Origin: Hexactinellida sp. DTS-2022
Taxonomy: Eukaryota > Porifera > Hexactinellida
NCBI GenBank assembly: GCA_028753945.1
Contig: JAPNXP010000012.1
Span: 5,651,001-5,715,000 of the forward strand
Direction: 5' to 3'
Length of the DNA stretch: 64,000 nt
The notes beneath the pieces were generated by a model. The model saw only the letters and a list, made by a program, of their open reading frames with translations, was not told where the DNA came from and did no database searches. This document shows positions 3,917 to 55,200 of the stretch, piece after piece. The translations under genes were made by a program, and so were the position numbers. The first letter of the stretch is position 1, and each line of letters opens with the position of its first letter.

Positions 3917-4195
3917 TATGTAGCTATTTATAGACAATCAGCTGATCAGTCATGTAATAGAAATAGTATTACAGGGAACTCTCGTTATAACGAAGTGATT
4001 GGGACCTGTAAATCCCTTCGTTATATCCGGATATTGGTTATAAGCGGATAATAATAATTATCCGCTTTCATTATGAGCAGTTATTCGTTATATCCGTTAT
4101 ATAAACGGAAGTTTACTGTACGTATTAGATAAATACATATATCTATCATATATCATTAGGGACACAGATAATGGATAAACCGATACAGGGGCGTC

Positions 4196-33599: not shown

Positions 33600-36500
33600 T
33601 CAGTTCTTCTTAACCACAATCCTCTTAAGACTGCCCTCTATGCAAGTAGCGTGTCTCATTCCCTGTTTCTCTAAGAACTGATACACCAGCAGTCTCTGGT
33701 GACTCGTCAGCGTAGTCGGGAGAGAGAGACTGGGGATGTCTGTCGATTTAAATTCTATAATTTGACCGAATATCGTTTCCAAACCGGTTTGGTCTGTATC
33801 AAACACAACAGTTGATTGGCTAATAAAACTAATCGTAACTTCATGTCTCGAATTGTCGAACTCTGCTAAGAATTGTTTAATCGAAAAATGTGTTTTCTCG
33901 ATCTCGCCTGGATTGTCCGGAATACTAAAGCAGATCCTCTTAGAGCTGCATGGACCAGGAACGAGGTTTATTCCCGACTCCAGCATTCGTCTCACAACGG
34001 AACCTAACTTGGCTTCTACAATAGTTTCGTATTTGAATTGGAGCGAAGGAGAGGGACATTCTATCTCTATCTCCATGGCAACGTGATTGGGTAGCGGGAA
34101 TGCCACAGGTGTTAGCATCTTGAGGTATAAGGCAACCGAGGGAAAGGAGGGAGAGTTTGAAATCTCAAAACATTCTGTAAATATTTCCTTGAGATAATTA
34201 AAATAAATAAAGCAACCACCTATCAAATTATAAGTTATCCTAACCAGTGTATTATACAGCCATTTGTAAATACGCTCCTAATCCTAGTCTGATCCAATTT
34301 CCATACACCTAAATCACAAATTTATGTTACGGTATAGGAGAAAAATTCAATTTTTCGCGCTCCCAATTAATTTTCTTACTAAAATCATACTCCAAACGCG
34401 CTCCTGGATAATTCCCTGCTCCTAACAACTAACCTGTAGTCGTGGTATGTACTGAATAGGCACGAACTCCCCCAGATACCCCGCCCATTCCTCCGCACTC
34501 AGCCTCCCCAGCTGTTCCAACAGCGCCCGAGTCAGCTGATCGGCTGAGCTCAGGACGGAGCGAGGTACTCTCTTTTCCTCCAACAAACTGAGTAGTATCT
34601 TAAGCACGTGAAAGGTCCTAGTGCAATGGTACGCGTTTCCCTTGTGATGCTTGCTGCGTAGAATTAGTACTATTAGCTCTATGGCAGCGGCAAACTCCTC
34701 CTCGGGTATTCCTACAGAGAAATAAGTTAAGAGAAGTAGGGGAGGTTCGGAAATATGTCCCTTTCCTTCAGAACTGTTCGGATACTAGTTGATTTGCAAA
34801 AAATGGCGAATTTCTTAAGATTAATTGGCTCGAATTGAGAATATCATATGGTGGAATTATACTTTGCAATTTTTTACTGTATAGTATTGATTATTATATA
34901 TTTAAAGTAGAACCTCGTTAGTACGAGTACGGTTAATACGAACATATTTCAGTCCCCTTCAATACAAATCACACCGGTTAACACGAATTGAAGTGTTTAC
35001 CTTTTATGAGTGTTTGTTTGACTTTGTTTACAAACTCCAGTCCCTCTAGAGCTGTCACAGAGGGACAGTCTCCGCTGTTTATGAGTTTCTTAAATTCCTT
35101 AACTTTACAAGGCACCCCCTCCCCCATTCCTCTCAGGCGCAGGAATATGACGTCATAGCTGATATCAGCTGTGCCGGTGTACCTGCATAGAAACCGAATT
35201 CGCGGCACTCTGGAATGTGGGGATACGTGCAGAGAGTTGATCCCGCACTGAATTAACAGCTGTTCCATCTTCCCAATGCACTCTTCGTGTGACAGCCTGT
35301 CAGGTGCTAATAGGCACAGGTCTATATCACTCATCCTCTTGAGGGGGTATGATCCGAACGTGTGCACCAGCTGTTCAGGGGCCCCCTGGTGTCCAATACA
35401 GCTCGCCCATAGAGAAGAGATTAGGTTAATGGTACTCTCAACTGCCTCGCTATAAGAGCTACGCTGCATCTTCCCATACACACGTACTGTCTGGAATACC
35501 TTAGACTTCTTAGCGGAGTGAGTAGGCTTCTTCTTGTGTGTTTGCTGCTGTGAGCTCGTGACGTCTATCAACTCGAATTCCTTATCCAAATAGTCTACCG
35601 TGATAGCCGCAAAGCTGGCTATATTCTCCGCCAGGTCCTCCCACACCTTTACATACAGCACGCCTGGGAACTGAGCGAGCAGTCGTCTCAGTTGTAGGGC
35701 CTTATACTCGGGTGTGTGTAGGGGCGAACTGTCCTCCTTACACAACAACAGGTCCGGCCGGATACCGAAGTTATGTAGCACCTCGCTAACAGCTGATCCT
35801 ATCGACTCGAGTCGGCCCGTCATTACCACAGTCATACTCTGGGCCCGGGATTGGTGAGAGAGGAACTGGAACAGGGCGGGTCCGGGGGTACAGAGGGTAC
35901 TCATGGGGTAGGTGAGGCTCTCTGGGTACACGACCCATTTGTTGTGGGGCCAGGGGACCCCTGTCAGCCTCTCGTACTGCTCCGGACCCTCCAGGGGGCC
36001 GGGGGTGTTAACCAGGGTACCGTCCAGGTCGAATATGAACAGCTGAGTAATGAGGTCGCAGGGACCTGTGTATATGTCTATAGAAGGGGAGGGGGGTTTG
36101 GGGGGCTTAGGGGTGTTCAGGGCTTCTAACTCTGAGCTGCTAAACACCCGACGCACCGTTCCGTCTGTGAGTTCTACCTGTATCCCTAGGGTACCGGTTA
36201 GCAGCATGTCACTAGGCTTATTGGGGAGGGTATTCAAGTTGTCTGCTCTGGCTGCTCTGCTCAGGAGAGAGTTAGAGTCCCTAGCTGAGCCTATCGGGGA
36301 TACGCTTATGGTTATGTGTGGGTGTGCATTGTCACAGGCGACCGCGGTCTCTAATCTGATTGGTGCGGCCTGTACCTTATCGTCCTGGACACACCCTAGG
36401 ACTATAAAGTCTAGTTTGGCGCCCAAACAGTAGGCATTGAGTTGTGCCTGGGTCGGCATATACTGCAGGTTAATGTGAGTGGCCTTAAGATTCCCGTATA

Positions 36501-39500
36501 TAGTTGGGAACTGAGTTAGAATAGTATTACGCGCATTCTGAGATAGGAATACGGCTACAAAGCGTACAGTAGATATCCTACTCGGTTCTTGTTTAGATTT
36601 GACTTTAACTTTGTTGTTTCTAACCAAACTCATTAGAGAACTACTACCTAATTTCCTCGGGTCTATAACAATACTATCCTTATCTGATTCCCATCTATTC
36701 CGCATTGCGACTGTTGTCTCGTAGGCTACATTGTGTTTGTTCCTCTGATGGTACACCTTAAGGACATCTTCGCTTGGACAGGTTAGCTCTAGGATATGGT
36801 ACTTATAACCGAAGCATTTTGCGAAACATTTGTAGAGTGAGTATTCCCAGTATTGAGAGTTTGTGTTGTCTACAACAACCAATGATTTGTTCGCGATTAA
36901 GTTGTCTATAAATAGATTCAAACAGGCCTTATGAGCACTGCTCAGTTTCTCAATATCAAATCTGTACTCGCCACTTAAGCTGTCAGTGAAAAAACTATCT
37001 GCGCTGCACAAGGCTAATAAATCCTGTTTCTTTTCGGGAGAGTTTTCAATTAGAGTAGATTTTCCGGAGCCTGGCAATCCTCTTAGGATTATTACGTCAC
37101 GCCCTTGATGCTCTGGTGTAGCATTCTGCATAACTATGGACAGGAAGGTATCTGTGTTAATTTCGCTCTTCATGGATTCTTCAATCAACTGCACGATTGG
37201 TAGAGGGCTATAGAAAAGTGCGAATAATTAACAGCATAACAATCAACTATCTTCGTAACCAGGGTTTCATACAGACTCGCGAAAATTCAAAATTGCAACG
37301 AAATATTTCTAGGCGCGAACGCGAAAATCGAAATATACAAATTTAGTAATTTAGGCGCGTGTGAGCGAGCTCAAACTAAATTTAGGCGCGCAGAAATTTG
37401 CCTGGATGAAAGCCTGTTCGTAACTAACCGATTTGTGACACAAATATTTTTGAGTATTTGTGCCAGCAACACCTCTGATAAGTCCTGTCTCAGACAAGAG
37501 ATCTGATTGGCCACAACAAACTTGCTAACATAGAATCCATCTTCCTCATTCAGTTCGAACATGCTTCCAAGAATAATATTCTCAACCGGTTGGAAGCCAA
37601 ACTGCATTCCTCTGAACTCCTGGTAGAAAGTGTAGTTTATTCGCGTTATGTTCATCTTCTTAGCAATGGGCCGGGACAGTTTTATGAGTGTCATGTGTGG
37701 CTTGAATGGCAGATGGTTCCCTGGGGTGCCAACTCCCGCCTCTTCGAATTGAATCTTAAGAGCAGAGGCGACCCGAGTCAGAGCGGAGTTAGCTTTGATT
37801 CCAGCGAAAATAACCTGAATTGAGCAAGCGTATAACTTGTATTGAGTCAATAAATAGTTAGACATTTGTTGTGTATTTAATTAGTTGGTGTTTATGTTTG
37901 AAACAGCCAGATAATCTGTATTAGTATAGTATATCATTAAGAAGTTCTTGTTAAGTTAGTCTCATTATTTGTTGTTAGTTCCTAATTAGTTACTCAAGCA
38001 CTGTTTAACGAATTGAATTGATTTGAGATAAGAATTTAAACGTCCTCAGTTACATGGCTTTCTGCAAGCATTTGCATAAATATTGTTCTGTTGAATGACT
38101 CATGAAAACTTACTAATGGTAGCCCAAGGGAGTAGTAAATATTATAAATACAGAAAAACTTCGTTAGTACGGAACTATTTCAGTCCCCTTCAAAGCCTTT
38201 TCAATACAAAAGACATCAGTTAATACGAATTCGGATATTTAGAAAATATTGTACGTTTACTTAAGAATATAATTACAATAGCATAGTCATAAGGAAATAA
38301 ATTAGTATTCTATTCTGAAATGAAATAACCTAAATGAACGAATCTTAACAAGGTCCCAACTAACTGACACGAATGTGATGTGTACACGTGCATGCCAATT
38401 AGTCACTAGCGTATCTATGGCACACAAATCGCCTCGACACACATTAATGTGAATAGGTTCATTTGAACCCACATTAAGGTTTCTGGATTTATGTAATCTA
38501 TAAAGATAATTGAGGCTATAGTACCGATGGTTATAATTTAAATAAAAATGTTTTCAAATTGCAGTATTCACATAGAAGATGGATGTTTAACAAAGTTATT
38601 AATTCTATCAACCCTTGTTGGTCTCAATGGTTTAATTTGTGTAATAACAGCCGTATTAATCACATCACACCTTTGCATTGAGAGATATAAGATCCGAAAT
38701 GAGAATTATATTATCTGTGAAAAGATGGACAGTCCATTTAGGAAAGTAGAGATTCTAATAAACAGAACGAACCCAGGTGACTCGTTAGGTGTCACAAAGA
38801 TAGATCCGGTCACCGGACAGGACCGCACCTCGGAGGGGTCGAGTGGGACCAACACTCCTTATAAGGGGGAGAGTGCCACATTCCAGAATATTTATAGTAT
38901 CTATGATTAATCAGCTGTTGTATAATGACAACAACGAATCAGATTTAAGTGCTTGTATAAATTGCTGTTGACTGTATTGTATATATTATTAATGCTAAAT
39001 TTACAATTGGATTAAAGATCTTATGAAAACAACAATTCAATTAACTCCGCTTAAAACGAATTCGATTCTAAATAAATCCACAATAAATAAACAACCACAC
39101 AACCAACCAACCAACCAACAACAAACAACAAACAAACAACAAACAAACAAACAACAAACAAACAAACAAACAAACAGACAAACAATCAATCAAATAACCA
39201 AACAACCAATCAAATAACCAAATAACCAACCAACCAAACAAATAAACAAATAAATAAACAAACAAACAAACAACCACACAACCAACCAACCAACAAACAA
39301 ACAAACAACAACAACAAACAAATAAACAAACAAACAAACAACCAACAAACAAACAAACAACCAACCAACAAACAAACAAACAAACAACAACAACTCACTT
39401 GGTCCCTGAAGCAGTCTACTCCGCTAATCTCTATCTTGTTGAACTGAGGCAGGATTCTAACCAACTGACTCTGGAAGTTCCCAATTACTTCTATTGCCCT

Positions 39501-42500
39501 ACACATATCTTCCTCTGTGTCTATTCGCACCATAACCAGAGTGACGTGTAATCTGTTTATCGGGAGACAGGCCTCTGATAGCATTGGGCAGTTGGACACT
39601 ATTCCGTCCTGAAGGCACTTAGCCTGATGTCTGATACAAGCGTCTGTGACCTGTCGATAGAGGGATATATATATAGGCCTATAGTCCCTTATACAGTAGT
39701 GCACCGGTTATAAGAACATTACATTTGAAAACGGTTGAAATATACCCCTATATAATTTTGCCGGTTAAAGACATATAGGAACTAAACTCTCTTATGGAAC
39801 AACAGTTTCAGATGCCATTTGGTATTCATTACAGACCGTATTGTCCTATACGTAGAGTATATAATACCTTAAAGCATATGAAGTAGTTAGGTCTGTCCTT
39901 ATTCCTGTACTTCCTGTTGCCTAGTCTCGAACCGCTAGCCCCACTGATGACGTCACCCTCTGTATCCTCATCTGAGTCCATGAGCATCAGCTCTGCTATG
40001 GCAGCGGGGTCTGTTATGACATCATGCTCAGGGGGCTGCTCCGTCGTATCGGGGACAGGCTCTGTAATCAGGGTTGGGTTAAAGTATAATTACAATTATA
40101 GGGATTTGTGTTTTTCAATCACAATTACAATCATGTCAAAACGTAATTAATTGCAATTGAATTAATTGCAATTATAATTGAACGCAATCCTGTCTGTAGT
40201 AGCAGAGTTAGGATTAGTATAAGCCGGTTATAATATGCTACTGTATACTCTCATTAATGTATTTCAGTTAAGGAGTACAAGGTTTAATTCCCCTAGCCTA
40301 TACAAATACATGCAATTGACTCCGGTTAATACGAATCCCGGATAATACGAACATATTAAGACGGTCCCTTGGTGTTCCTATTAACAGAGTCTATTGTAGT
40401 TCTTGATTCAGTTTACTAATATTAAGTGCAAATTCCAGTTGAAATCCAGTTAAGCAATGTATTACTGGGCTGTTTCCTTTAATTAACAAACAAACAACAA
40501 ACAAACAAACAAACAAACAAACAGATACACTTTACATGCTACTATAACTAACTACATCTAGCATACTACTATTCCCTTACCGACAGGCTTGCTCCTAGGG
40601 TTGCTCGCCTCATACTCCTCGATAACCTCCATAATAGTGGTCTTAGTGCCCCTGGAGCCATACACCTTATCTATCTGTATGTTCTTATCCCACACAACAA
40701 CACTCTTGTACTTAAAGTATTGTATCCTGTGCTTAGGAATGGCCAGCACATCCATGTCTGCACTGGCCAGGTCTTCCCAGCTGAACTCAGAGAAAGGTCG
40801 CTCTATAATTCCCACAAATCTGTCCAGGTATCCTATAGTGAAGCTCTCTGAGGGGAGGTCCGGGTCCCATATTATGCGGTGTATTACGTCAGTGGCGGAC
40901 TTCATGGGGTCCTTCTTGGTGCAGCCTCCGTCTGAATCTCTAGGCTGCTTTTGGGACCCAGCATTCTATAAGGGGCGTTATTAAGAGCTTCCTTATATGT
41001 AGGACCTCGTTAGTACGAACACAATACCATGGGACCAACAAAATATGTTCGCCAATATCATTTGTATTTATAAACCAATATCATTTGTATTTAAAAGAGA
41101 TTTTACTGTATGTAGACGGTTTATTAAAACTTTTTTTATTTTATTTATAGACAGTTAATTAGTAGCCTTCTTTGGGAAGCAGCATTCTATAAGGGGTTAT
41201 TAAGAGCTTCCTTATATGTAGAACCTCGTTAGTACGAACACAATACCATGGGACCACAAAATGTGTTCGCCAATATCATTTGTATTTAAAAGAGGTTCTA
41301 CTGTATGTAAATGGTTTATTTATAGACAGTTAATCAGTAGCCCTTTGAGGAAAAAGCATTCTATAAGGGTGTTAAATATATCGTACAGTGAACTCCCGTT
41401 ATTACGAAATGGATATTTCCCCCGGAGCACTAAATGCATTGAAATTTAAGAGTTTCCATATATGAGTAGAGATAGGAAAATTACTGTAATATGAAACTAA
41501 CTTAACTTAACATAGAACCATAGCTGATAAAATATTAACAGAAATAAATTATCAACTTGTCCTGGGTAGTTGGTTTTATTACCCAATACAGGGGCGGCAC
41601 ACCCGGTACGGCGAGCGCCGTACCACATTTCAGAGTGGTCCGGCGCAGCCGCACCACTTCAGATTCTCCAGCGTACCGGGACCACATTTCACATTCCACA
41701 TTTCGAAATGACGTGCCGCCCCTGCAATATCAAAAAACAGAATTGTGACTGCATTGATATTGGCATAATGCCAAAGACAATGTAGTCTGGGAGCTTGACT
41801 CCCTTAAATAAATAAAAGAGTTTAATTAAATGTACTATTTGTTCTTGTTTCCTGACCATAACATTTGATAATTTGAATGCGATATTTATTAATAAGCCAT
41901 AATATATTTCCTAACAACAGACACAAGTTTACGAAGAATAAAATAATAAACGGCTAGTGACTAGTGCCCAAAATTGAAGAAAATATCACTGTGGCTATCT
42001 GATTCTTTAATTAGTCTCGGGTAGCCTGGGGGTCTAGGCCCCCTTAATTAATAAAAATAGAATTTAATAATTCCTTAGCAGTTGAGATGCAGTGTTTATC
42101 TAATGTTTCCATTTAGGTGCCCGTCTCTGGCACAAATTTTAATTTTTGGATAAATCGGTGTATACCGTACATATTTTACCTCTACAAAATGCCTCACCAT
42201 TGTATTAGAAGTTATAACGATTATGTAGTATGGCGGACACCTTTAGGGTGCCATAAAAATTTAACTTTTATAAAAAAAGTACCGACCAAGTAATACAAAA
42301 TGGCCATTTGGTATAATACTTAGTTTTAACAGATTTGGTACAACTGACTCGAAATTTGACGATAATAACTTTTTTAACATAATGAATAAAGGAATTAAGT
42401 CGGGTTCTTTTAAGGCCGATCTTGGTGTAAAATTTGCCTTAAATAAATCCCTGTATTAACCAATATCATTTGTATTTAAAAGAGGTTCTACTGTATGTAG

Positions 42501-45500
42501 ATGGTTTATTTATAGACAGTTAATCAGTAGCCTTCTTTGAGGAAAAGCATTCTATTAGGGGTGTTAAATATATCGTACAGTGAACTCCCGTTATTACGAA
42601 ATGGACATTTCCCCCAGAGCACTAAATGCATTGAAATTTAAGAGGTTCCTTATATGAGTAGAGATAGGAAAATTACTGTAATATGAAACTAACTTAACTT
42701 AACATAGAACCATAGCTGATATTATATTAACAGAAATAAATTATCAACTTGTCCTGGGTAGTTGGTTTTATTACCCAAAATGAAAAAACAGAATTGTGAC
42801 TGCATTGATTATAGCGTAAGCCACGACAATGTAGTCTGGGAACTTGACTCCCTTTAAATAAATAAAAGAGAATTTAAATGTACTATGTATTATGTTGTTT
42901 TGTTTCCTGACCATAACATTTGATAATTTGAATCCGATATTTATTAATAAGCCATAATATATTTCCTAACAACAGATATAAATTTACGAAGAACAAAATA
43001 ATAAACGGTCTTGTGCCCAAAAACAAAAAACTACAAACTTTGTGGCTTCCTGATTCTTTAATTAGTCTCGGGTAGCCTGGGGGTCTAGGCCCCCTTAATT
43101 AAAATAGAAAAGAATTTAATAATACCTTATCAGCTGTTGAGATGGAGTCTTTTAATGTCTCCATTTTGGTGCCCGTCTCCGACACAAATTTTAATTTTGG
43201 TATAAATCGGTGTTTACCGTACATATTTAACCTCTACAAATGCCTCACCATTGTATTAGAAGTTATAACGATTATGTATTATGGCGGACACCTTTAGGGT
43301 GCCATAAAAATTTAACTTTTATAAAAAAAGTACCAACCAAGTAATATAAAATGGCCATTTGGTATAATACTTAGTTTTAACAGATTTGGTACAACTGACT
43401 CGAAATTTGACGATAATAACTTTTTTAACAATGAATAAAGGAATTAAGTCGGGTTCTTTTATTATGAAATTCAAGGGACCAAAAATTGTGTTCATAATAA
43501 GCGAACTCTAATACAAACCCTATGCAAGTTGTTAAATTGGGAGCTTGTTCATAATAGAAAGATCTTCATATTAAGCAGACCTTGAGTGTACTTAATTGTC
43601 AGTCGCCGACATGCCGACATAAAAGCAAATGTCGCCGACACACAAAGATTTGGCCGAGTTCATTTGGGACTTTTCCTCTAATACAGTACACCCTCGCTAA
43701 TCCGAACAGTGAAGTAATGCATTTTCTATGGGCATCTATAAATGAGAATCTCGAAAATCCATACTAAACATCTTTTGTACTCCTTAAATACTTGCCCGAG
43801 AATTGTTTATTCCCACATTTATTAGAATAAATTTTTGGTTTCTCCTGTTCGGATTAGCGAGGGTGTCTGTACTCACTTTAAAAGTTGAGGTTTTTGGTTC
43901 GCTCCCAATCTGGCTTCTTTACCAAAAAAGAAAATTTATTTTCAATCTTCTAGTTCTAGGAACATTTCTTATAATTCGTTCTATTTTAGATAATTTCCAA
44001 TACATGTGGGCTAAAACTTTATTTGTAGCGACATGGTCTGTCATATCAAATAATTTGATTTGTCAGATTTCAAGCTAGATGAGTGGACTTGTAATAACGG
44101 AATATACAAAATTTATTCATAATTTGTATAAATTTTGCAAGTTTCTTGTATAAAAAAAGATCCAGTATAGTATAAATTCTTCTAGGAGAAGGAATGAAAA
44201 TTACTAATGTAAAAAAAAATAGGAAATACCTTAATTAGTCATAAATAATATTCTCTTTTATATAATAAGGCGTCGGAAGACACCAAGGCATAGAGCCAAC
44301 TTACCTGTTTAGTTTTATTTGAAGAGTAGTAAAGTTTAGTATAAAGCAAAAAATATAACGAAGGAAAGCTTTACTTATATCGGGTTAGATGAATAATGTT
44401 ATGGTTGTATTAGATTTCTAAAATAAAGCCAATATTATTCACCCATAATATAGTAAGTTATCCTAACTAATTGAACTAATTGTATTAAATTCTAATTTAA
44501 TCGTTTTAAACAATAGTGTAACAATAGATGGCTCATTAATTCCTTATTCCTATACAAAGTTTATAAAAGTTTTAAACAAATAATATCTCACCAACTGTTC
44601 CATATTTCTCTCCTTTTTCTTGTCAGATTTACTTTTCCCCTTTCCTCCTCTCTCAGCAACAAAAGTGTCAGCAGAGTATTCCTTGCTTTGGGACTCCTGT
44701 TCGATTCCCTTAACCAAACTCTCAAATAGAGGCTGAATCACATTCCCACTCTCACTACTCTCATCAATAACCTTAGGAAATATTACACAATTAATTCATA
44801 TACATACATAATAGTATAGTATAGTACACGTATAGTAAACTCCCGTATATAACGAAATATGTGCTTATAACGAAAATATTTTCCCCCACTAAATGCATTG
44901 ATTATTACCGCTTATAACGAATATCCGGATATAACAAAGGAATTTACAGGTCCCAAGCACTTCGTTATAACTAGAGTCGACTGCATTTGTAAATACTTAC
45001 CTCAAACTTATCGAAGTCTGGTGTATCCTCCTTATCCTGGCCTGTGCGTATAATCCCTGCGTTCCCACTTCTCAGCATCCAATCAGATACGGCCTCGTAT
45101 AGCGGGTAGATAGCTGGGGTCCCCTGTAGGGTCCCACTCAGGGCTGTCAGGTGGTCATCCAACTCGGGAGGGGGAGGGGACTGGTCCAATAGGATCGTTG
45201 GAGAGGAGTGAGGGTACTCGTCTAATAGATACAGGCAAATAAATTCCTATATATATCTATATTATTAAATCTCGATTGTTGTGTGTGTGTTTGTTTGTTT
45301 GTTTGTTTGTTTGTTTGTTTGTTTGTTTGTTTGTTTGTTTGTTTGTCCGGATTGTATTAAAGTGATGGGGGAATAGAAACCGCATTTATATGTGGGATAT
45401 AAACTAACTTTCAACGGGTATTATAGGCAAACAAGTATGCCGAACACGAATTTCGCGTTTATAAATTTCTCATATTAATATTTGTTGTTGTTGTTTACAC

Positions 45501-47030
45501 AAAATAGGTAAACAAATTAATTAAAATTCAAAATCAACCTAGAAGTTAGCTTCCAACGGGTATTATAGGTAAACAAGTATGCCGAACACGAATTTCGCGT
45601 TTATAAATTTCTCATATTAATATTTGTTGTTGTTGTTTATACAAAATAGGTAAACAAATTAATTAAAATTCAAAATCAACCTAGAAGTTAGCTTTCACGG
45701 GTATTATAGGTAAACAAGTATGCCGAACACGAATTTCGCGTTTATAAATTTCTCATATTAATATTTGTTGTTGTTGTTTATACAAAATAGCAGGGCCGCC
45801 GAGAGGATTACCAGAGGCTTTGCGGGCCCCGGGGCAAAAAAATAATGATGGGCCCCCTCTGGAACCTTTCCCAAACCCAAATGTTCATTTTTACACGATT
45901 TCCTTATTTTCACGGGCCCCTCAGATCCACGGGCCCCGGGGCAACTGCCCCCCCTACCCCCCCCTCTTGGCGCCCCTGCAAAATAGGTAAACAAATTAAT
46001 TAAAATTCAAAATCAACCTAGAAGTTAGCTTCCAACGGGTATTATAGGTAAACAAGTATGCCGAACACGAATTTCGCGTTTATAAATTTCTCATATTAAT
46101 ATTTGTTGTTGTTGTTTATACAAAATAGGTAAACAAATTAATTAAAATTCAAAATCAACCTAGAAGTTAGCTTTCACGGGTATTATAGGTAAACAAGTAT
46201 GCTGAACACGATTTTCGCGTTTAAAAATTTATAATATGAGTATTTGTTGTTGTTGTTGTATACACAAATAGGTAAACAAATTAATGAAAATTAGATAGCT
46301 ATCTACCATTTCCATGGTAGAAAATGTGAGGAGTAAGGCCGCTCACCGGCCGTTAACTTGAGGTGCGTAGCACCGATCTGTCGCAAAGCGACCGAGACCG
46401 AAGGGCTCGTCTATATAACAAGTTAACAACCGATATGTTCTTATAACCGGTGTGCTTATATCCAGCATCTACTGTAGTATATATTATATACAACTATATA
46501 TTATAAATTCATTTATAGCAACAAAATAATGTATAAATATGTTCGTACTGACATTAATTAAATCAAGCTGCAGATTCTCTTAAAGATTGACCAATCACAA
46601 ATGAGCGCTGAATTTTCGAAAATAGGCTCTTTTGCTAAGTATAAATTGATGAATAGAAAAATAATTTAGATTGCAATTAGAAATAACTTTTAGGAAATTA
46701 TCACTATCAACCTGATGACTGCAAGTGAGTTATAGTTGTGTTCCAATTAGTTTTCTATAATTAATAAATATACCAATTATATATTAATTAATTAACATAC
46801 TTGATAGTATAAATGTTATTTTATGAGCAATTTCGTTTCCGTTGTGTTTTGGGAGATTTAGAGACAGCAGTATAGTCCCGTCGGAAGTGGTCACTTCGGT
46901 CTCCTGCTCGATAATGCTCTTCAGTGTTTCTAACTCTTCAGTTAAGGGTGCTCTGTACTGATATTTTGACACCCGACGACCTAATGTTTTTATTGCGTTT
47001 TTGGATAGTACTAATATATCTAAGATATCC
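33600..47030 (-). CDS. Multi-domain RNA end-repair protein: RWD, MJ1316, 2H, PNK, 2H-like, HAD, NTase, R3H
   Basis: Ten exons read 5' to 3' on the minus strand join in frame: 47030-46801, 45221-45001, 44771-44592, 40965-40581, 40061-39868, 39650-39399, 37814-37429, 37207-35001, 34711-34434, 34187-33600. Result: at least 1,640 aa; the initiating exon is not identified (47030 is a splice acceptor). Numbering from there: RWD (about 40-135); charged linker; MJ1316/DUF504 domain (about 233-335, IGYLDRF, IPKHRIQYFKY, VVWDK); AKAP7/LENG9-type 2H phosphoesterase (about 392-610, LHVTLV and PHMTLI); P-loop polynucleotide kinase (Walker A GLPGSGKST with Lys665, VVVDNTNSQYWE, RNKHNV); a second, CPD-like 2H domain (THINLQY, PHITISVS); HAD phosphatase (FDLDGTLVNTPG with Asp1009, MTGRLES, WEDLAENI); polymerase-beta-like nucleotidyltransferase (FGSYPLKRMSDIDL) with a PAP-type helical extension; and C-terminal R3H (LTSHQRLLVYQFLEK). 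Known relatives are LENG9 (MJ1316 plus 2H) and the Swiss-Army-Knife RNA repair proteins. Inferred role: healing broken RNA ends. No ATP-dependent ligase domain is visible. Confidence 0.85.
37263..37413. mobile_element. TTTCATCCAGGC-family MITE in repair-gene intron
   Basis: Starts gggtttcatacagactcgcg and ends tttgcctggatgaaagcc; interior shares gcgtgtgagcgagctcaaac with the 6904 and 60485 copies. It ends about 15 bp from the 5' splice site of the 2H exon (37429), so it occupies most of this 221-bp intron. Confidence 0.75.
38548..38910 (+). CDS. Small single-pass membrane protein nested in the repair gene
   Basis: Intronless, 120 aa, ATG at 38548, opposite strand within the intron that splits the 2H domain. 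An 18-residue N-terminus with two Cys precedes a hydrophobic segment (about 18-45, VGLNGLICVITAVLITSHLC), a basic stop-transfer run, and a tail with tyrosine motifs (NENYII, NIYSIYD). No known family. Same overall plan as the two membrane proteins nested in MAGI. Low-complexity repeats are absent and the codon pattern looks coding, but expression is unproven. Confidence 0.6.
   Translation: MFSNCSIHIEDGCLTKLLILSTLVGLNGLICVITAVLITSHLCIERYKIRNENYIICEKMDSPFRKVEILINRTNPGDSLGVTKIDPVTGQDRTSEGSSGTNTPYKGESATFQNIYSIYD
39083..39395. repeat. (CAAA)n/(CAAC)n simple repeat at an intron start
   Basis: About 310 bp of caaa, caacc and aaat units. It abuts the 5' splice site of the repair-gene exon 39650-39399 (intron begins gtgagttgttgttgtttg on the minus strand). 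Long ORFs across it are low-complexity artefacts. A similar repeat lies at 236-388, with shorter ones at 40487-40520 and 45290-45345. Confidence 0.9.
41271..43460. repeat. 1-kb tandem segmental duplication in an intron
   Basis: Copy A (41271-42411) and copy B (42461-43460) run in the same direction and share, in order, atcatttgtatttaaaagag, agacagttaatcagtagcc, gtgaactcccgttattacg, cataacatttgataatttga, gggtagcctgggggtctagg, ggcggacacctttagggtgc and gaattaagtcgggttctttt. Divergence is low (mostly point changes and small indels). Copy A carries an extra 136-bp insertion. No coding potential. Lies in the repair-gene intron between the linker exon and the MJ1316 exon. Confidence 0.88.
41589..41724. 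mobile_element. 136-bp hAT-like MITE present in only one duplicate
   Basis: Perfect 12-bp inverted ends CAGGGGCGGCAC and GTGCCGCCCCTG. CAATA flanks both sides. Copy B of the surrounding duplication has an empty site (ttattacccaaaatgaaaaa), so this inserted after duplication. GC-rich interior without ORFs. Confidence 0.85.
43684..43871. mobile_element. TACACCCTCGCTAATCCGAACAG MITE
   Basis: Left end cagtacaccctcgctaatcc and right end ggattagcgagggtgtctg are inverted, TA-flanked on the right. Pogo-like termini. An ORF starting at 43803 overlaps its right half and is not considered real. Confidence 0.7.
44276..44425. repeat. Dispersed repeat shared with 10120-10265
   Basis: Inverted relative to the other copy. 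Shared words: ggaagacaccaaggc, gagccaacttacctgt, tatttgaagagt and gttatggtt. Noncoding; nature unknown, possibly the end of a longer element. Confidence 0.55.
45410..46310. repeat. 141-bp tandem satellite, about five to six units
   Basis: Unit landmarks aacgggtattatagg recur at about 45413, 45555, 45696, 46034 and 46175. Each unit includes aagtatgccgaacacgaatt, tttgttgttgttgttta and aaatcaacctagaagttagc. Spacing is 141-142 bp except where a 188-bp transposon interrupts. Located in the intron that splits the RWD domain. The last unit is diverged. Confidence 0.9.
45791..45978. mobile_element. hAT-like MITE with perfect 8-bp duplication, inside the satellite
   Basis: Ends CAGGGCCGCCGAGAGG and CTTGGCGCCCCTG are imperfect inverted repeats. 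CAAAATAG occurs at 45783-45790 and 45979-45986, a perfect 8-bp target duplication. Neighbouring satellite units give the uninterrupted sequence (acaaaataggtaaac). GC-rich interior with gggccccggggc words; no ORF of merit. Confidence 0.9.
46338..46428. other. GC-rich multi-hairpin island
   Basis: A compact GC-rich patch in AT-rich DNA. An outer stem gttaacttg (46352-46360) pairs with caagttaac (46419-46427). Inside are GGTGC-gta-GCACC, GTCGC-aaa-GCGAC and a weaker GAG..CTC hairpin (gagaccgaagggctc). Just before it, GGCCG-ctcac-CGGCC forms another hairpin. The three-arm layout resembles a cloverleaf but lacks tRNA consensus boxes. It may be a transposon end or a structured RNA. Confidence 0.5.
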
Positions 47031-49452
47031 CTGAAAATATTAGAGTTCTACTATGTATATATCCTTAGTTATGAACTAGACAATGTCAATATAGGCCTAA
47101 TCCATACTAGCCAAATATTTACAAAAAATTTTTATGTTAGTTTTTAGCGCGAAACATGTCAATTATAAAATATACCTGAGTCAATACTCAATGTTTTAAA
47201 TCGAACCGAAATATGCTTTTTCTTTAATCTACTCTATGTTATTGTCATTTTTGTGAAATTGGTCAAAAAAAACCCACTATTTTTCATTAAAAGTATACTA
47301 ATTCAATTTTTTTGTATTATATTGCCAAAACTGCCCGCTTTTAAAACATGCGCCTACATATGCTGAGCATTTTAAAAAAAAGTTTGACTTTCTAGAATAA
47401 AAATTCTCTTTTTTACATCCATATGCCCAAATGGTCTTTTTTTACACCTTCATAATTAGCATTTAATTAATTTGTGTCGAAGTGGCTGAGTCCAGAATAT
47501 GAAAGTGCGAGGAAAAGGAGTTCCTAAACTGCATAAAATAGATAATGTCATTTGAAATTGAATTAGACTATTTTTAGAAATTTAGAGCTAAGCTCTATCT
47601 CATTTGGATCAGAAGTTGGATTTTTGTCAGCTTTTTAACATATTGCCACTTTGACACCACCATATTTGGGCATTTGAAATCAGAACACATCATTCGAATT
47701 ATAATATAATCCCAAAAGTTTATCCAATGAGTAAGAAATAGTATCATGATGTGACTAGAATTTTAGAGCTAGTCTCTGCTGTCCAGAGATCAAGAGTTAC
47801 AAAATTTGCTTCGTCATCAAAATTGGGCACATCAAATTACCATATATGGTCATGTTAAAAAGTGTGACACCTAGAGTCCTAAAATGTATTATAAACGTAT
47901 AGAAAGTCAGGTATTTACAGTATTTTCTAATGCCTATGATCATTTTATCTCAAAGCGTTTCTGAAATATCAACAGGTGTGAAATGTCAGATTTTTTGCCC
48001 CCTTCTGTGGCCCAAAAGTCCATAACTTATCGAATAATGATTGGATCGTGTTGTGTAACGTCTCATTTTGTGCGCAAATGCTATTTCCATATTTGTATTA
48101 CCAAATTGGTGTTTTATATAATACTTTATTGTATATTTGAGGGCCTTGAGGTGTGAAAATATGACAAAACAGACAAAACCATAGTCATAAATTGGTCATT
48201 ACTCATGATATATTATTGTAAAAGTGTTGAAAACAAATGCTACGCATAGATAAGAAGCTGGCGCATTTTTATGAAGAATAACAGAATTATTCTGCTGTCC
48301 AATTTCCCACAGTAATATATGATCACCGGGTACTTGCATACCCTTCATATTCTTTTATGCCCCTAATTTCCTAATTTTTGACATATTCCTGAACTTTTTG
48401 ACCTGAACCTGTATATTTTGACCTGTAGATTCCGATATTTTTAATTTTGGGAACAATATATGGCAGTGTAGAATTTTATCACCTCTTTTGATGTTGAAAT
48501 TCGGAAAAATTCGTGGGCCGCAGCCTTAGAATGCTTATAAAACCAAAAATAATAATCAGAAAGTCAAAAAATATCTCTGGGGTAACACATGATGCATCCT
48601 CAGACCCTTGAACTAGAATTGAAAAATTTTTCTTCTAACATTTTATAACGATAGTTTAGTGCACGACTGCGTTTTATGATTATTTTGAAAAAATGCCCTT
48701 TAGCATCGTTTCTTCTGCAAAAATAAATAAAATAAAAATTATTACTGAGAGGAAATAGTCTCATAATAATATGTTCAAAAATTCAAAAAGATTCAACAAT
48801 TTTGAAAAAATGTCATGCCCATATAAGGAAGTCGACGTCTTATTTTATTAAAAAACACCATCTTGATTGAAAATTAAGAAAAAAAAAATCATAGAAGTCA
48901 ATCTCTATCTCATCTAGAGTATTCCTAGTAGTAAATTATGCAATTCTGAGATTCACCGTGAACGCCCGAATATCAATACAGATTACCCTTAATTCTGCTG
49001 TTAGTACCTGTTTGTTCGCCATACTTGAAATTGATTTCACTATTGTTTGATACTAGATAGTAAATATGAATTGGAGTTTGTATTCAGTATTAATTAATTC
49101 GTTAATTCACAGTATATGCAACCGAGTAGACAAATAAACTGGTTATATAACACAATAATGGAAGTTATAAAAATAGATTAATTTGTCGTACTTATAGTAG
49201 AAGATTGCTCAATTAATTAACTTGTACAGTTCTAAATATAGTATACAGTTAAATCATCGTTAAATACGTAGTGCTAAAAATAGAATCTAAATTTAGAAGC
49301 TGAACATCATATTCCAAAATTATTAATATTTAATAGTTAAATAAAACATTAAAAATACAGCTACAGTTTGAATTCGTTCCAGGGTGTAATCTGATTATAT
49401 AGTAAAATCATTTACAACACACAAACAAACTAGTATATGGGAAAGTATAAAA
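47031..49452. other. 2.4-kb AT-rich region upstream of the repair-gene exons
   Basis: No ORF or repeat family I recognise. The first exon(s) of the RNA-repair gene should lie here. One candidate on the minus strand is ATG at 49022 reading MANKQ followed by a CAG|gtacta donor at 49008, but its phase (0) does not fit the acceptor at 47030 (which needs two preceding bases), so another exon would be required. Otherwise unannotated. Confidence 0.4.
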
Positions 49453-52095
49453 TTATTTTTTAAATAATTCTGCTATTACTCCAGTTGCATTATTTAGAGG
49501 ATAAAAACTGAGTCTGTTCCTAAAGTCCATTTGCCCATTTTCACACCTGAGTTGGATGTTCTCTTGATCTTGTTGAACTGAAATAGATTCTGCCAATTCT
49601 GTTGCCAGGGAACTGACCAAATCGCAACCATTCATCCATTTGATAAACTTCTTTGATCCAAAGTTAATGTGAATACATAGGAGATCATTCAGTTTGATAA
49701 TTCGGTCTTTATAAATCCCGTACTCCCCCAGAGTAGCTGTGTCTTGCGAGAGTAGTTGGTCATCGTAGAGCAGCTGAATTTTGCCGCGTGGGATGTTTAT
49801 TTCCTGGGATATTCTTTCTTTGAGATCAAAGATTGTTTGATTCGAAGTACACTGAATTTGAAAAGTGCCAGCTATTGGATGCATCACAAGCATAACAATT
49901 TCTTTGGCAGCAGGTGATCTTGGCGCGGATTGTTGGCGACCCATGTGTTGCTGTGTGCGTGAGGCAGGAATGCTGTCACTCTGTTCAAGGTGTCGATCTA
50001 CTACTCGGCTGTCCTGTTCATCTTGTCTGTAAGCGTAGTGGCTGTGTTGCGGACTTAGAGTAGCATCCGGATTAGGCACAGGTTGTGGATTTTGAATAGG
50101 TTGTGGGTCTTGAATAGGTTGTGGGTTTTGAATAGGTTGTTGGTTGTAAACATCATGTGGGTTATGGACAGTATATTGATTAGGCACAGGTTGTGGGTCT
50201 TGAATAGGTTGTGGGTTAGGAATAGGTCGTGGGTTTTGGACAGTATATTGATTAGGTTGTGGATTATGGAGAGGTTGTGAAGGTTTGGCAGGAGGGGAAT
50301 TTTGTTGATAATGGGTATGTAAAGGTTGTTGTGCATCTGTGGGTTGTTGTGCATTCTGAATATGTTGATGGTAGGTAGGTATAGGTTGTTGTGGATTTTG
50401 AGATGGATGTTGATGATGTTGTTTTGGACTTTGTGGATACATATACCCATGCGCTACAGTTGTCTGTCCGAGTGGAGTTTGCGTTGCATTATCGGGCAAA
50501 TGGCGGCCAGTTGGTGTATGGCCTAATATACCTGGGTTGTAAATGCTAATGATCTGAACCTGAGAATCATTTGGTATTTCGTAGCTGCAGAGAAGCCTGG
50601 CAGGTTCCATAATGATGCCTTGAAAAGCCAGACTGTCTTGCTTGTTAATGGGAAATATATTCGATAGATTTTGTAAGAAGTTCTCTACCGTTATGTACAC
50701 TCCAACTCCACTAATGTATTTGAAGTTTCCTACCAGGTCAACTAACTTAAGACTGATTGGAATACCAAGATCTGAGCGAATCGCCAATGAAATGATTGAG
50801 CCACATTGGATTGTGAACTTATTTACAAATCGTGCATCTTGCAATTCGCGACCTTCAAAGTTTAGAATCTGGAAATCAATCGGTATATTCTCTTTATTTT
50901 GAATCCTACATTTCAAATCCTTTATTTTATCGTTCTTTTGGGCTAGAATTTCGAATGATTTGAAGTCTGGATGAATAGTTACACTGAAGGATTCCTCACT
51001 ACCAAATAAGAGATGGGCCCCTTGTGAAATTTCGCATTCTCTTATGGTCTGTTCATTTGCTAACTTCCTATGTTTATAAAAAAGATTTTTATGCGCATTA
51101 TCCGTTCCTAGTTTGGATTTTATTCTCGACTTGACGGCTAACACTAATTCCATGGGTTGTATATAGAAAGAAGTGACAGATCCATTGAGCAGACTCACGA
51201 ACACAGATATTCTATTTTCAATAGATCTCAGCTCAACCTGACTCATTGGTTGAATGCGGTGCATATTAAGGACATCCATATCATCCAACTTCTTATCATT
51301 GTATAAACAGAAATGAGAAAATAAACTGTCATTATCATCTGAAAACACTGTATCTTCAATTTTTCCAATTGGATCATAGTTATTAATGGAAATTAACTGC
51401 TTTTGACCATTTGGCTTTTTAACGAAGATATTCATTTTGTCGCAATCGGACTGCTGAACAACTAGACTGATACTCTCGCCTTCCCTGTAGTGAATGGAAG
51501 CAAAGGTCTGGTCCTCTCTTAGGACTCTTCCTTTGTAGTTAAGTGTTAAGAGCGCAGATGGAATACACTCCTTTCTCTGTATCTCTTCCTTAATGGCGAA
51601 CACATGGGAAGACTGCTCTAATAGCAAACAGATATTCTTTCCGGAAGATAACGTGACAGATACCTGTATAATCCCAGTGAGAATAATGCAAGCATCTCCC
51701 TTGAATTTGCAGTCTTTCACTGTCTGGGTATTCTTTAGCTCGCGATCTTCGTATGTCAGCACTTGATTATTCGGCTGGATTGGAATCTTCTTACTAATTT
51801 CGTGCTTAATTTCGGTGATATTCATGCAGGGGTAGCATTGAAGCTCCAGTTGCGTATTACACATCTTAACGATTATCTTAATTTGAACTTCCAATAATAG
51901 CACGCATTCTGGCCCCAGAGAGTAGTCCAACAAGTATTTGAGATCTTCCAAAATTACATTCTCGAAAGAAAGTTGTTGCTGGTCAACGGGGCAACCCACC
52001 CTATCAGATATTTTCGCTTTGAGTTCCTCAACCCTGTCAGTAACCGCGACTTCCAACGTAATCTGACCACGGTCAGTACGAACTGTAATTTTCAT
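49453..52095 (-). CDS. Protein of about nine ubiquitin-like domains with a P/Q/N-rich repeat linker
   Basis: Single exon, 880 aa, ATG at 52095. Seven consecutive Ubl units of about 72 aa fill residues 1-525, each with the beta-grasp pattern (a strand pair such as ITVRTDRGQITLEV, a helix such as VEELKAKISDRVG, then QQLSFENVILEDLKYL-type strands). A low-complexity linker (about 530-730) consists of Pro/Gln/Asn/His repeats of the QNPQPIQDPQP kind. Two more Ubl units follow (about 735-805 and 806-880). None ends in a cleavable Gly-Gly, so this is not a ubiquitin precursor. Units 1-7 match units 7-13 of the upstream neighbour one for one, showing paralogy. I know of no named family with this architecture. 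Likely a multivalent scaffold for ubiquitin-binding proteins (inference). It ends near the unannotated 47-49 kb region. Confidence 0.85.
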   Translation of the reverse strand: MKITVRTDRGQITLEVAVTDRVEELKAKISDRVGCPVDQQQLSFENVILEDLKYLLDYSLGPECVLLLEVQIKIIVKMCNTQLELQCYPCMNITEIKHEISKKIPIQPNNQVLTYEDRELKNTQTVKDCKFKGDACIILTGIIQVSVTLSSGKNICLLLEQSSHVFAIKEEIQRKECIPSALLTLNYKGRVLREDQTFASIHYREGESISLVVQQSDCDKMNIFVKKPNGQKQLISINNYDPIGKIEDTVFSDDNDSLFSHFCLYNDKKLDDMDVLNMHRIQPMSQVELRSIENRISVFVSLLNGSVTSFYIQPMELVLAVKSRIKSKLGTDNAHKNLFYKHRKLANEQTIRECEISQGAHLLFGSEESFSVTIHPDFKSFEILAQKNDKIKDLKCRIQNKENIPIDFQILNFEGRELQDARFVNKFTIQCGSIISLAIRSDLGIPISLKLVDLVGNFKYISGVGVYITVENFLQNLSNIFPINKQDSLAFQGIIMEPARLLCSYEIPNDSQVQIISIYNPGILGHTPTGRHLPDNATQTPLGQTTVAHGYMYPQSPKQHHQHPSQNPQQPIPTYHQHIQNAQQPTDAQQPLHTHYQQNSPPAKPSQPLHNPQPNQYTVQNPRPIPNPQPIQDPQPVPNQYTVHNPHDVYNQQPIQNPQPIQDPQPIQNPQPVPNPDATLSPQHSHYAYRQDEQDSRVVDRHLEQSDSIPASRTQQHMGRQQSAPRSPAAKEIVMLVMHPIAGTFQIQCTSNQTIFDLKERISQEINIPRGKIQLLYDDQLLSQDTATLGEYGIYKDRIIKLNDLLCIHINFGSKKFIKWMNGCDLVSSLATELAESISVQQDQENIQLRCENGQMDFRNRLSFYPLNNATGVIAELFKK

Positions 52096-52293
52096 AATCT
52101 AACGGGGTATCTGGAAATTTGTTAATAGTAACGACAATAATTATGAAATCTACTTGTAGAATATATATACACGTACTACATATGTAAATATATATGCTCA
52201 AATATATCATAAATTAGATACGTGATTCGTATTAAATTCAAAAAATAACGTAACAACTACTATCATACCTTGATAAGCATTGTGTGAACGTAA

Positions 52294-55200
52294 TTAGAAA
52301 TTAGATGCTTGTCCGTTTGATGGCTGTAGGGGCATAATACCTTGTTGTTGTTGTTGTTGGTGTTGGTTTAGATATGGATAATTAGGAGGAGCACAATATT
52401 CCGGTCTCAATTGATAACAACAATTAGAAAAATTCCTTGCAGGGCTGTTGGCAGGAGTATGATTAATAGAATAGCTTCGAGACACGTGTTGATATGTAGA
52501 TGGGTTTTCATAGTAGCTAGTATGTCTCCTCCTATCCTGTACATGCTCGGACAAACGGTTGCGTGTCGATTTACTGATAAGCAAGAGGATCGACCCGTCC
52601 CTAATTCCATAGCTGCAGATCGGGACATTATCTCGGAGAACTGACCCGTTAACTACGAAGGAATCGTCATCTTTAGCTGGAAACCCTTTGAACTCTAGAC
52701 TCTCGATTGCCGCATAGACAGTTCTGTATCGATCTATGTTGTTTAACTCTACCCTGTTGCCAGCAGGCTCATCTATAATGGTAATGGTAATTAGGGTTTC
52801 TGCCAAATCCTGAGTTTGTAGAGTAATGACATCAAATTCACAAATGTTCAATTTTCCAATAATTTCGTCGTTATGCATAAGTCTTCCATCCAATTTGAGG
52901 ATTTGGGCATGAATCGGAATGTGCACCTTCGTTTCAATCTTTCTTTTCACAGACACAACTCTCTCATCACGCGTCAACAAAATCTCGAATTGCCTGCTCT
53001 TGTTTGGTAGAATGTCTACTAAAAATGAATTTTCCAAACCCAAGAATAGATTATCGCCATTAGATATGTACTGTTGGTTAATATTCCTTAGAATAACATT
53101 TTTGTTTAGATACAACTTGCTGTGAGTATACTGGAGTCCGAACTGGTCTTGCATTTGTCGTTTCACAACTTCGATTGTTTGGGAGCGTTTAAGACAGAAG
53201 GGCTGCACACTCCCTGACAGTAGTGTTACGTTTACAACTGTGAAAGTATTTAAAGTCATTTGAATGTCTGAATTGTTTGGTATCTGATAGGACTCAAGGA
53301 TATTATCATCAGATAGGATTCGCGTGTTATATTTAAAGTCATGGTGGTCGATGAGGAGAAAGTTATCAGGGAACAGAAGACTCTTTATCTTCCCAACAGT
53401 ATCCAAACAGTGTACTTTCACAATCTGTTGGTCTCCAGTTGACATTTGTACAAACAGTGTGAGTAACTCGGATCTTTCAGAATCAACATTTAGGATTATT
53501 AAACCCCCCGCCCTATATCTAATGGTCTCGAGAGTAAGTTTGTCCTTAAACTCTTTTCCACAATAAACAAGCGTCTGGTATTCGAATGGAATCTGGAATT
53601 TGTGCTGAATTTGCTGCTTTATGTGTTCACCAGTTAGCTTCATGTGACAGCCATTCAGGAGGAACTTCTTCCCAGTGGAGAACTGTATACAGACACTCTT
53701 GTGCAACTCTAGCGTTATTTTTGCATCAGGGTTTATACAGTAATGCAGCAGTGATTGTTCGTTTGACAGTTCTCTGCCATCATGAGAGAGTCGCTGGTCT
53801 TCTATTGCTATTCTCTCCTTATCATTAATGCATTGCTTGAGATATATAATCTTGGCATTTGCATAGCTTGTGATATTGAATACGTGACGCACGAAGCATA
53901 CAGTCCAGCAGTGGAGAACATCGACCTGTATATTGCTGTTGTTGACAATTGCGAGGTCACTTAAAGTCTTAATATCTTCACAAAGCAAGTCTTTAAAATA
54001 TATTTTTTGGTTTTCTATGTTCAGCCCTCTGAGTGACAGTAGCTCCCTCTTCACATCGCGAATTGTAGCAGTAGCTCTGACCTCGATACTCAATTCCCCA
54101 GAACAGAGAACGGATACGTTAAGGGAGATGTTAGCAATAGGAATAGCATCCTCATGGACCTCCTCACATAAGCTAACTGGATTCTCACGCGCTCCAGGTG
54201 CCTGAGGTATGAGCTGATCAATTCCAATGGCATCTGGATTATATTCAGGCGGAGAAGGAGACTCACTAGATGGACTACCCGTGTTATCTGCTAGAAAGGT
54301 AATGGATCTAGGGCGAGTTAAAGAGGGCGCAGTGAATGATGGAACACCAGTTGATATTTCTGTTGGAATTGCAGAAGGTTGGTGCAATTCTGAGTTAATG
54401 ATCCCACGTGGATCTACGTTTGGTGGGTTAGCTTCAACTGAGTAAGGCCCATCAATAGGATCCAAGGGACATGAATCATTACCAGACAAAGGTTGGAAAA
54501 TATTATCACTTTCTAAGTCTACTTCCAATGTTGCTAGTCTGTCTCTGTTTGCTGATACTACCTATATAAAAGCATTGTAAATAGCTTATGAATATAGATA
54601 GACAATTTCGCGATTTCTTACCAGCTGCGAGAGTGTTCTGACACGAATTGGCACTTGTGGATTATCCGAGTCGCGCTTTAGCACCATGCACAAAGAGGAC
54701 TCATTTTGTATTTCATAATCAGCCACTGTTCGCTCTTCCTCCAGCTGCAGGCCTGAAAATGTTAACTGGTACTGATCACGGGGTCCGTACTCATTTCTAG
54801 AAACTTTGTCTTTAATTTCAAGAATTGTCGTGGTTGGGAGAACAGAAATTGGGTATTCGTTGTCGTTATGCGTCTTAACTACAATTTGTATTTCTCCAGG
54901 TGAAAACTGTTGTACCAGGTGTATAGCGTTCTCCTTTTGTATGTTGTAATCTGATAATCGTTTCTCATCCTCCAACAGTTTTCCACTGAACACCAGTTTC
55001 TGTCTATTGACCGGGATCTGTATTAGTGCCTCGAGTTTAGTTTTAAGTTCCAAGACACTAGACTGAGGGTCGACCTCAAAAGGGAGCCGCTTTGTTTTTA
55101 ACACTACAAATATGTTCATAAGGACAAGGCCCCTTACAACCAATTTTATCTTAGAACCGTCCCCAATCCCACACCCCCTGAGGGTGCTTTCGTTTGTCAC

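Follow-up and report, generated by a model that had tools for sequence, protein, structure and literature searches.

Does the minus strand of the window (the whole stretch of 64,000 nucleotides analysed here) encode one long protein between positions 47030 and 33600, and if so, to which known proteins is it related and what might it do? The first-pass annotation had joined ten exons into a single reading frame, and this holds: exons 47030-46801, 45221-45001, 44771-44592, 40965-40581, 40061-39868, 39650-39399, 37814-37429, 37207-35001, 34711-34434 and 34187-33600 (minus strand) join in frame over 1,639 codons and a TGA without internal stop, with GT-AG at all borders and agreeing phases.

Gene structure and 5' end

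The start of the first exon at 47030, by comparison, is probably wrong. The protein LOD99_10131 of Oopsacas minuta (P0001) starts with MASKQ, directly followed by the RWD domain. Within the window, ATGGCGAACAAACAG is found at 49022-49008, followed by gt, and an in-phase acceptor is located at 46957. Given the Oopsacas start and this acceptor, the first 24 residues of the ten-exon model are probably intronic. Translation probably starts at the ATG at 49022 (MANKQ) and continues in an exon from 46957, the 15-base first exon being taken from similarity alone (four of five residues, MANKQ versus MASKQ). The revised model consists of 11 exons and encodes 1,620 aa; residue numbers refer to this model, and the numbering of the conservation alignment is 19 higher. 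All features are on the minus strand:

49008..49022, minus: exon 1, probable first coding exon, ATG, MANKQ (similarity to MASKQ of P0001; donor cag/gtacta)
46801..46957, minus: exon 2, first part of RWD (in-phase acceptor 46957, donor 46801)
45001..45221, minus: exon 3, remaining RWD and linker (phases; RWD match 2.3e-7)
44592..44771, minus: exon 4, basic linker (in frame; P0001 alignment)
40581..40965, minus: exon 5, MJ1316 domain at about 40905-40684 (PF04457, 4.8e-26)
39868..40061, minus: exon 6, acidic linker and start of the first 2H domain (phases, Pfam, P0001 alignment)
39399..39650, minus: exon 7, AKAP7-type first 2H domain with first HxT, H419 (PF10469, 2.1e-33)
37429..37814, minus: exon 8, AKAP7-type first 2H domain with second HxT, H508 (Pfam; H in 73/73 relatives)
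35001..37207, minus: exon 9, kinase, second 2H, HAD and NTase, 735 aa (single open frame; P0001 alignment)
36715..37095, minus: P-loop polynucleotide-kinase-like domain with K646, D667, D710, R752 (PF13671, 8e-12)
36130..36552, minus: probable second 2H domain, tRNA-ligase-CPD-like, with H841, N843, H894 (PF08302, 0.002, below cut-off; edges chosen by us)
35542..36045, minus: HAD phosphatase domain, borderline, with D990, D992, T1060, K1099, D1121 (PF10307, 25.2-26.8 bits versus a cut-off of 25.6)
35005..35442, minus: putative polymerase-beta-type NTase with G1215, S1216, D1224, D1226, D1282 (invariant motif; edges chosen by us)
34434..34711, minus: exon 10, conserved region of unknown fold, KGNAYHCxRTFH (phases, P0001 alignment)
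33600..34187, minus: exon 11, end of this region, R3H at about 33761-33606, stop codon (Pfam, profile)

The revised model aligns end to end with the Oopsacas protein (1,077 of 1,612 aligned residues identical, 67%), and the alignment continues across the exon junctions. From this match, the genome is likely to be that of a glass sponge. The Pfam E-values and this full-length identity to an independent glass-sponge gene model place the gene model beyond chance. The locus is probably a conserved, single-copy gene that encodes one long protein. Profile searches of the genome (112,398,167 bases on 18 contigs; match counts are lower bounds) gave at least one match for MJ1316 and at least one for HAD_SAK_1.

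Judged by eye, a block of about 90-100 bases containing 'gtttacctattttg' and 'aacaacaacaacaaatatt' is repeated in intronic sequence at 45400-46200. Just upstream of the gene and in the same orientation lie three adjoining ORFs (49453-55734, minus strand), in each of which ubiquitin-like domains recur as 5 to 6 ubiquitin stretches. A further minus-strand ORF (422-3937) encodes a USP8-like deubiquitinase with USP8 dimerisation, WW and UCH domains.

Relatives, domains and catalytic residues

A database search with 7,999 scored candidates returned 84 matches, comprising 73 homologs and 11 kinase-only proteins (P0074-P0084). The latter, which often bear the name NEDD4-binding protein 2, were left out of the conservation counts. 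The homologs extend to the NTase as single proteins in 71 of 73 cases, and P0072 and P0073 are without the protein's end. Oopsacas minuta and Geodia barretti are the species named among them. From the style of their EukProt names, P0070 and P0069 are presumably Sycon and Clytia, respectively. The lengths of the protein's pieces are much alike across the set. The first-pass annotation had regarded the gene as a new merger of LENG9 with Swiss Army Knife (SAK) domains plus an RWD module. This view fails, as the same order is found in single proteins of other species (73 of the 84 matches) and RWD already belongs to LENG9. The architecture is not unique; the window holds a striking member among relatives that are already in the databases.

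A profile of the C-terminal half (8,000 candidates scored) found 11 proteins. Five are long-exon ORFs with 68-85% identity to the window (P0205-P0209), one is a partial relative with part of the first 2H domain and the entire back half (P0210), and five share parts alone, among them P0211 and P0212. The latter is a metagenome protein that combines a 3'-5' exonuclease, an R3H domain and a related kinase. No bilaterian C-terminal half was seen among the candidates sharing most words with the queries.

Eight domains had been proposed for the protein. Four of them, RWD (2.3e-7), MJ1316 (PF04457, 4.8e-26), the AKAP7-type 2H domain (AKAP7_NLS, PF10469, 2.1e-33) and the P-loop kinase (AAA_33, 8e-12), are above the Pfam cut-off in the joined ten-exon model and constitute firm predictions; the second 2H, NTase and R3H domains score below it in the window and HAD is borderline. 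For the relatives we surveyed Pfam (E <= 0.05) in 31 of the 73 together with the window exon, 32 sequences in all. Seven of the 73 homologs carry a precomputed RWD match, and the survey found RWD in 7 of the 32 sequences. The survey also found zf-CCCH in 20/32; the joined model of the window protein has no Pfam match to a CCCH finger. PMC6514570 describes MJ1316 as recognising RNA 2'-3' cyclic ends and as fused in varied ways to RNA-repair domains across eukaryotes. The first 2H domain has both HxT/S motifs (HVT and HMT), with H419, H508 and T510 in 73/73 relatives and residue 421 being T in 65 and S in 8 of them. A profile of the 32-sequence set matches AKAP18/AKAP7 chains in PDB (to 4.7e-36).

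The kinase has the Walker A motif GLPGSGKS; K646, D667 and D710 are present in 73/73 relatives and R752 in 71/73. The 32-sequence profile matches Pnkp1 in PDB (4.6e-5). Matches to SRP54/FtsY (from 1.5e-4) cover the stretch up to the P-loop and were read as general P-loop likeness. NCBIfam gave weak kinase matches alone, far under the cut-off. Scans of prokaryotic and viral sequences with the C-half profile were set aside: the 80 loci kept, of 273 and of 484 relatives respectively, match essentially the kinase stretch, and the single viral locus where the match extends further (L108) contains a 150-aa stand-alone kinase ORF.

The second 2H domain is a probable assignment that draws on the relatives. 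H841 and H894 are found in 73/73 of them, and tRNA_lig_CPD in 22/32 sequences surveyed. The window retains one of the two HxT/S motifs, the second (HIT); the first reads HIN, compared to HxT in 73/73 relatives. All six further glass-sponge-type sequences in an alignment have T at position 843, among them P0001, which is also one of the 73, and N843 (in exon 37207-35001) is either a real change or a sequencing error. A PDB profile search with this domain gave no match, nor did a single-sequence PDB search with the long exon, and the domain's profile has no convincing likeness to that of the front half (probability 1.6).

HAD_SAK_1 is borderline in the window and clear in the relatives. The score is 25.2 bits (1.7e-5) in the joined ten-exon model, just under the cut-off of 25.6, and exceeds it with the long-exon ORF alone (26.7-26.8) and in the genome search (28.7); the survey finds the domain in 31/32 sequences. 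The DxD, T and D residues (D990, D992, T1060, D1121) are intact in the window and in 72/72 relatives. A profile search against PDB gave weak and mixed matches (Vegetative storage protein 1, 0.11; AphA, 1.1 and above). The NTase assignment derives mainly from the invariant motif: G-S, D-x-D and the third D are present in the window and in 71/71 relatives. The Pfam score for an MTPAP-like NTase is below the cut-off (0.005, joined model), and the NTase model matches just 4/32 sequences surveyed. The eight best PDB matches of a C-terminal five-sequence profile, none significant alone, are Mnt antitoxin (0.034), URT1 and poly(A) polymerases (0.19 to 0.72), all of which we take to be NTases or NTase-fold proteins. 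The 32-sequence profile matches URT1 weakly (0.014).

Between the NTase and R3H lie about 235 aa (residues about 1333-1567) without a convincing match in Pfam and profile searches. This region contains the conserved KGNAYHCxRTFH and is retained also where relatives are without R3H. In exon 10, ATP-grasp scored 0.0069, under the cut-off; as the four other sequences scanned do not show it, this match was dropped. PHROGs gave no match for the C-terminal part. The R3H call is firm as a prediction from the relatives: the domain scores 0.0036 to 0.033 in the window protein, below the cut-off, and is found in 24/32 sequences surveyed; the 32-sequence profile matches SMUBP-2 R3H in PDB (2.4e-10). R1590 is present in the window and in 60/60 relatives. 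The His of the R-x3-H motif (H in 51/60 relatives, Y in 9/60) is replaced by Tyr in the window. All other catalytic residues checked, with the exception of N843, are intact.

Kinship with LENG9 and RNA ligases in the genome

A profile of the N-terminal half found 476 proteins, of which 120 are listed. Named LENG9-type proteins among the matches listed are from molluscs, an annelid, a nemertean, a brachiopod, echinoderms, a hemichordate, flukes, a lungfish and amphibians, together with a Nematostella fragment. Precomputed annotations place RWD in 35 of the 120 proteins of LENG9 type that are listed, and RWD-MJ1316-2H is therefore LENG9's own front half. LENG9 of bilaterians (for example P0087 from Glandiceps) consists of RWD (with CCCH as well in some), MJ1316 and the AKAP7-type 2H domain in the same order as in the window, where MJ1316 is followed by the 2H domain and preceded by an N-terminal RWD. 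Unlike the window protein, it is without kinase, HAD, NTase and R3H. In ten short LENG9-type proteins that were checked, 64 to 70 residues follow the second HxT (42 in the Nematostella fragment, 110 in P0085), whereas the window protein continues for more than 1,000 residues after the 2H domain and hence is an extended relative rather than a plain LENG9.

A tree of the window, 26 of the 73 full-length and 36 of the 120 listed short proteins groups the bilaterian-type proteins with a support of 0.906 when the Nematostella fragment is included and of 0.13 without it; the kinship with LENG9 therefore leans on domain order more than on the tree. The short P0085 nests with the full-length P0016 (support 0.999) and retains the start of the C-half linker. 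Either the gene itself or its model may be truncated, for which reason P0085 was not used for the direction of loss. Among the matches listed in a literature search on LENG9, no title names a molecular function.

The genome also encodes RtcB in one open frame, and a Tpt1-like exon is found at one locus (L016). RNA_ligase (PF09414) matches at least four places. One is a DNA ligase (L014); at the others (L012, L013 and L015 on contigs C1, C7 and C6) RNA_ligase is the sole family above the cut-off. L015 matches the trypanosome RNA editing ligase (1.7e-8) and T4 Rnl2 (0.0012) in PDB, and L012 gave no PDB match. The loci suggest that Rnl2-type RNA ligases exist in an animal genome. Neither RNA_lig_T4_1, RLIG1 nor OAS1_C gave a match in the genome; these searches were run without a positive control, and we claim no absence. 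Three further loci with AKAP7-type 2H domains (L002, L003 and L004) lie within about 27 kb (contig C5, 811-839 kb), and L003, with KH plus 2H, has by eye the look of an ASCC1-type protein.

Putative function and comparison with known systems

We propose, with a probability of about 0.65, that the gene encodes one RNA end-healing protein, in which the LENG9 architecture (RWD-MJ1316-2H) is followed by a Swiss-Army-Knife-type half (kinase-2H-HAD-NTase-unknown region-R3H). MJ1316 and R3H would hold the cut RNA, and the first 2H domain, with or without the second, would open the 2',3'-cyclic phosphate. HAD would take off the remaining phosphate to leave a 3'-OH, the kinase would phosphorylate the 5'-OH, and the NTase may extend the 3' end with nucleotides. 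A separate, presumed partner ligase would then seal the presumed substrate. This proposal draws on the domain matches and invariant catalytic residues (both 2H histidines, kinase, HAD and NTase; 71 to 73 relatives), on the PDB profile matches to AKAP18/AKAP7, SMUBP-2 R3H and Pnkp1, on the metagenome protein P0211, in which a T4-type RNA ligase occurs together with R3H and a related kinase, on RtcB, the three RNA_ligase-type loci and the Tpt1-like exon of the genome, and on the recognition of cyclic ends by MJ1316 reported in PMC6514570. Counted against it are N843, the weak HAD and NTase profiles against PDB, the second 2H domain without PDB match, and the NTase model in 4/32 sequences; moreover, domain fusion is no proof of a single pathway.

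The Pfam results support the earlier reading as one gene whose kinase, HAD, two 2H-like and NTase-like parts fit RNA end healing. They also agree with its statement that only the ligase is lacking, as far as the ligase is concerned, with no RNA ligase family above the cut-off in the joined model. Resection of 3' nucleotides, also suggested earlier, finds no support, as no nuclease domain was matched.

The best-surviving alternative, which we consider improbable, is a constitutive RNA-processing enzyme that, for example, does the healing in a tRNA or mRNA splicing pathway of Trl1 type, rather than damage repair. Fungal tRNA ligase has a kinase beside a CPD-like 2H domain in its healing half, and both the matches to tRNA_lig_CPD (22/32) and the Tpt1-like exon are in line with such a role; however, RtcB, the ligase of animal tRNA splicing, is present in the genome, and HAD, NTase and MJ1316 would not be needed there. 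Quite unlikely is a role in clearing 2-5A-type oligonucleotides as a 2',5'-phosphodiesterase, with salvage left to the back half. AKAP7-type 2H enzymes cleave 2-5A, but kinase, HAD and NTase would play no part in that reaction, and OAS1_C has no match in the genome (search without positive control). According to PMC2852836, 2-5A accumulates in marine demosponges, which would fit such a role. That the protein of this species is an RNA-binding scaffold with part of its activities lost has a similarly small chance: N843, the Tyr in R3H, and R3H and HAD scores below those of the relatives speak for it, and are opposed by the otherwise intact catalytic residues and by 67% identity to Oopsacas over the entire length. 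Two or more genes, such as a LENG9 ending near 37429 and a kinase-HAD-NTase gene from near 37207, are very unlikely: the donor at 37429 (aaatcg/gttagt) is not strong and bilaterian LENG9 proteins stop just after 2H, but both halves form one protein in Oopsacas, aligned across the 37429/37207 junction, as they do in the 71 relatives reaching the NTase, and P0025 is named as the complete ORF of an assembled transcript.

Returning to RNA end healing, the protein would allow one to study jointly, in a single expressible polypeptide, whether cyclic ends are recognised and opened, 3' ends dephosphorylated and 5' ends phosphorylated. The gene also offers a testable origin for LENG9. It is conceivable, though we hold this tentatively, that a complete RNA end-healing machine, which sponges and some other animals retain as one protein and use with Rnl2-type ligases in a heal-and-seal pathway apart from RtcB, has persisted in bilaterians, human included, as its front half alone, LENG9.

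No title on this protein was seen among the matches listed in a literature search; subscription papers were mostly outside its reach, and we do not claim that the protein is unpublished. Judging by its Pfam name, HAD_SAK_1, the family has probably been described at least in part. Swiss Army Knife RNA repair proteins, a name reportedly from Burroughs and Aravind 2016, have HAD_SAK_1 (PF10307) beside a kinase and other RNA-end domains, as in the window. For fusions of MJ1316 in RNA repair, Burroughs and Aravind 2016 is cited in PMC6514570. Trl1-type tRNA ligases share the P-loop kinase followed by a CPD-like 2H domain; in contrast to these, the window protein has no matched ligase domain and has additional MJ1316, AKAP7-type 2H, HAD, NTase and R3H domains. 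P0211 shares the related kinase, R3H and a sub-threshold CPD-like match, but has a T4-type RNA ligase and a different order, without HAD, MJ1316 or AKAP7 match. The full architecture of the window is found in Oopsacas minuta LOD99_10131 (hypothetical protein, UniRef 'R3H domain-containing protein', 1,629 aa), which differs by T at the position of N843 and by small indels.
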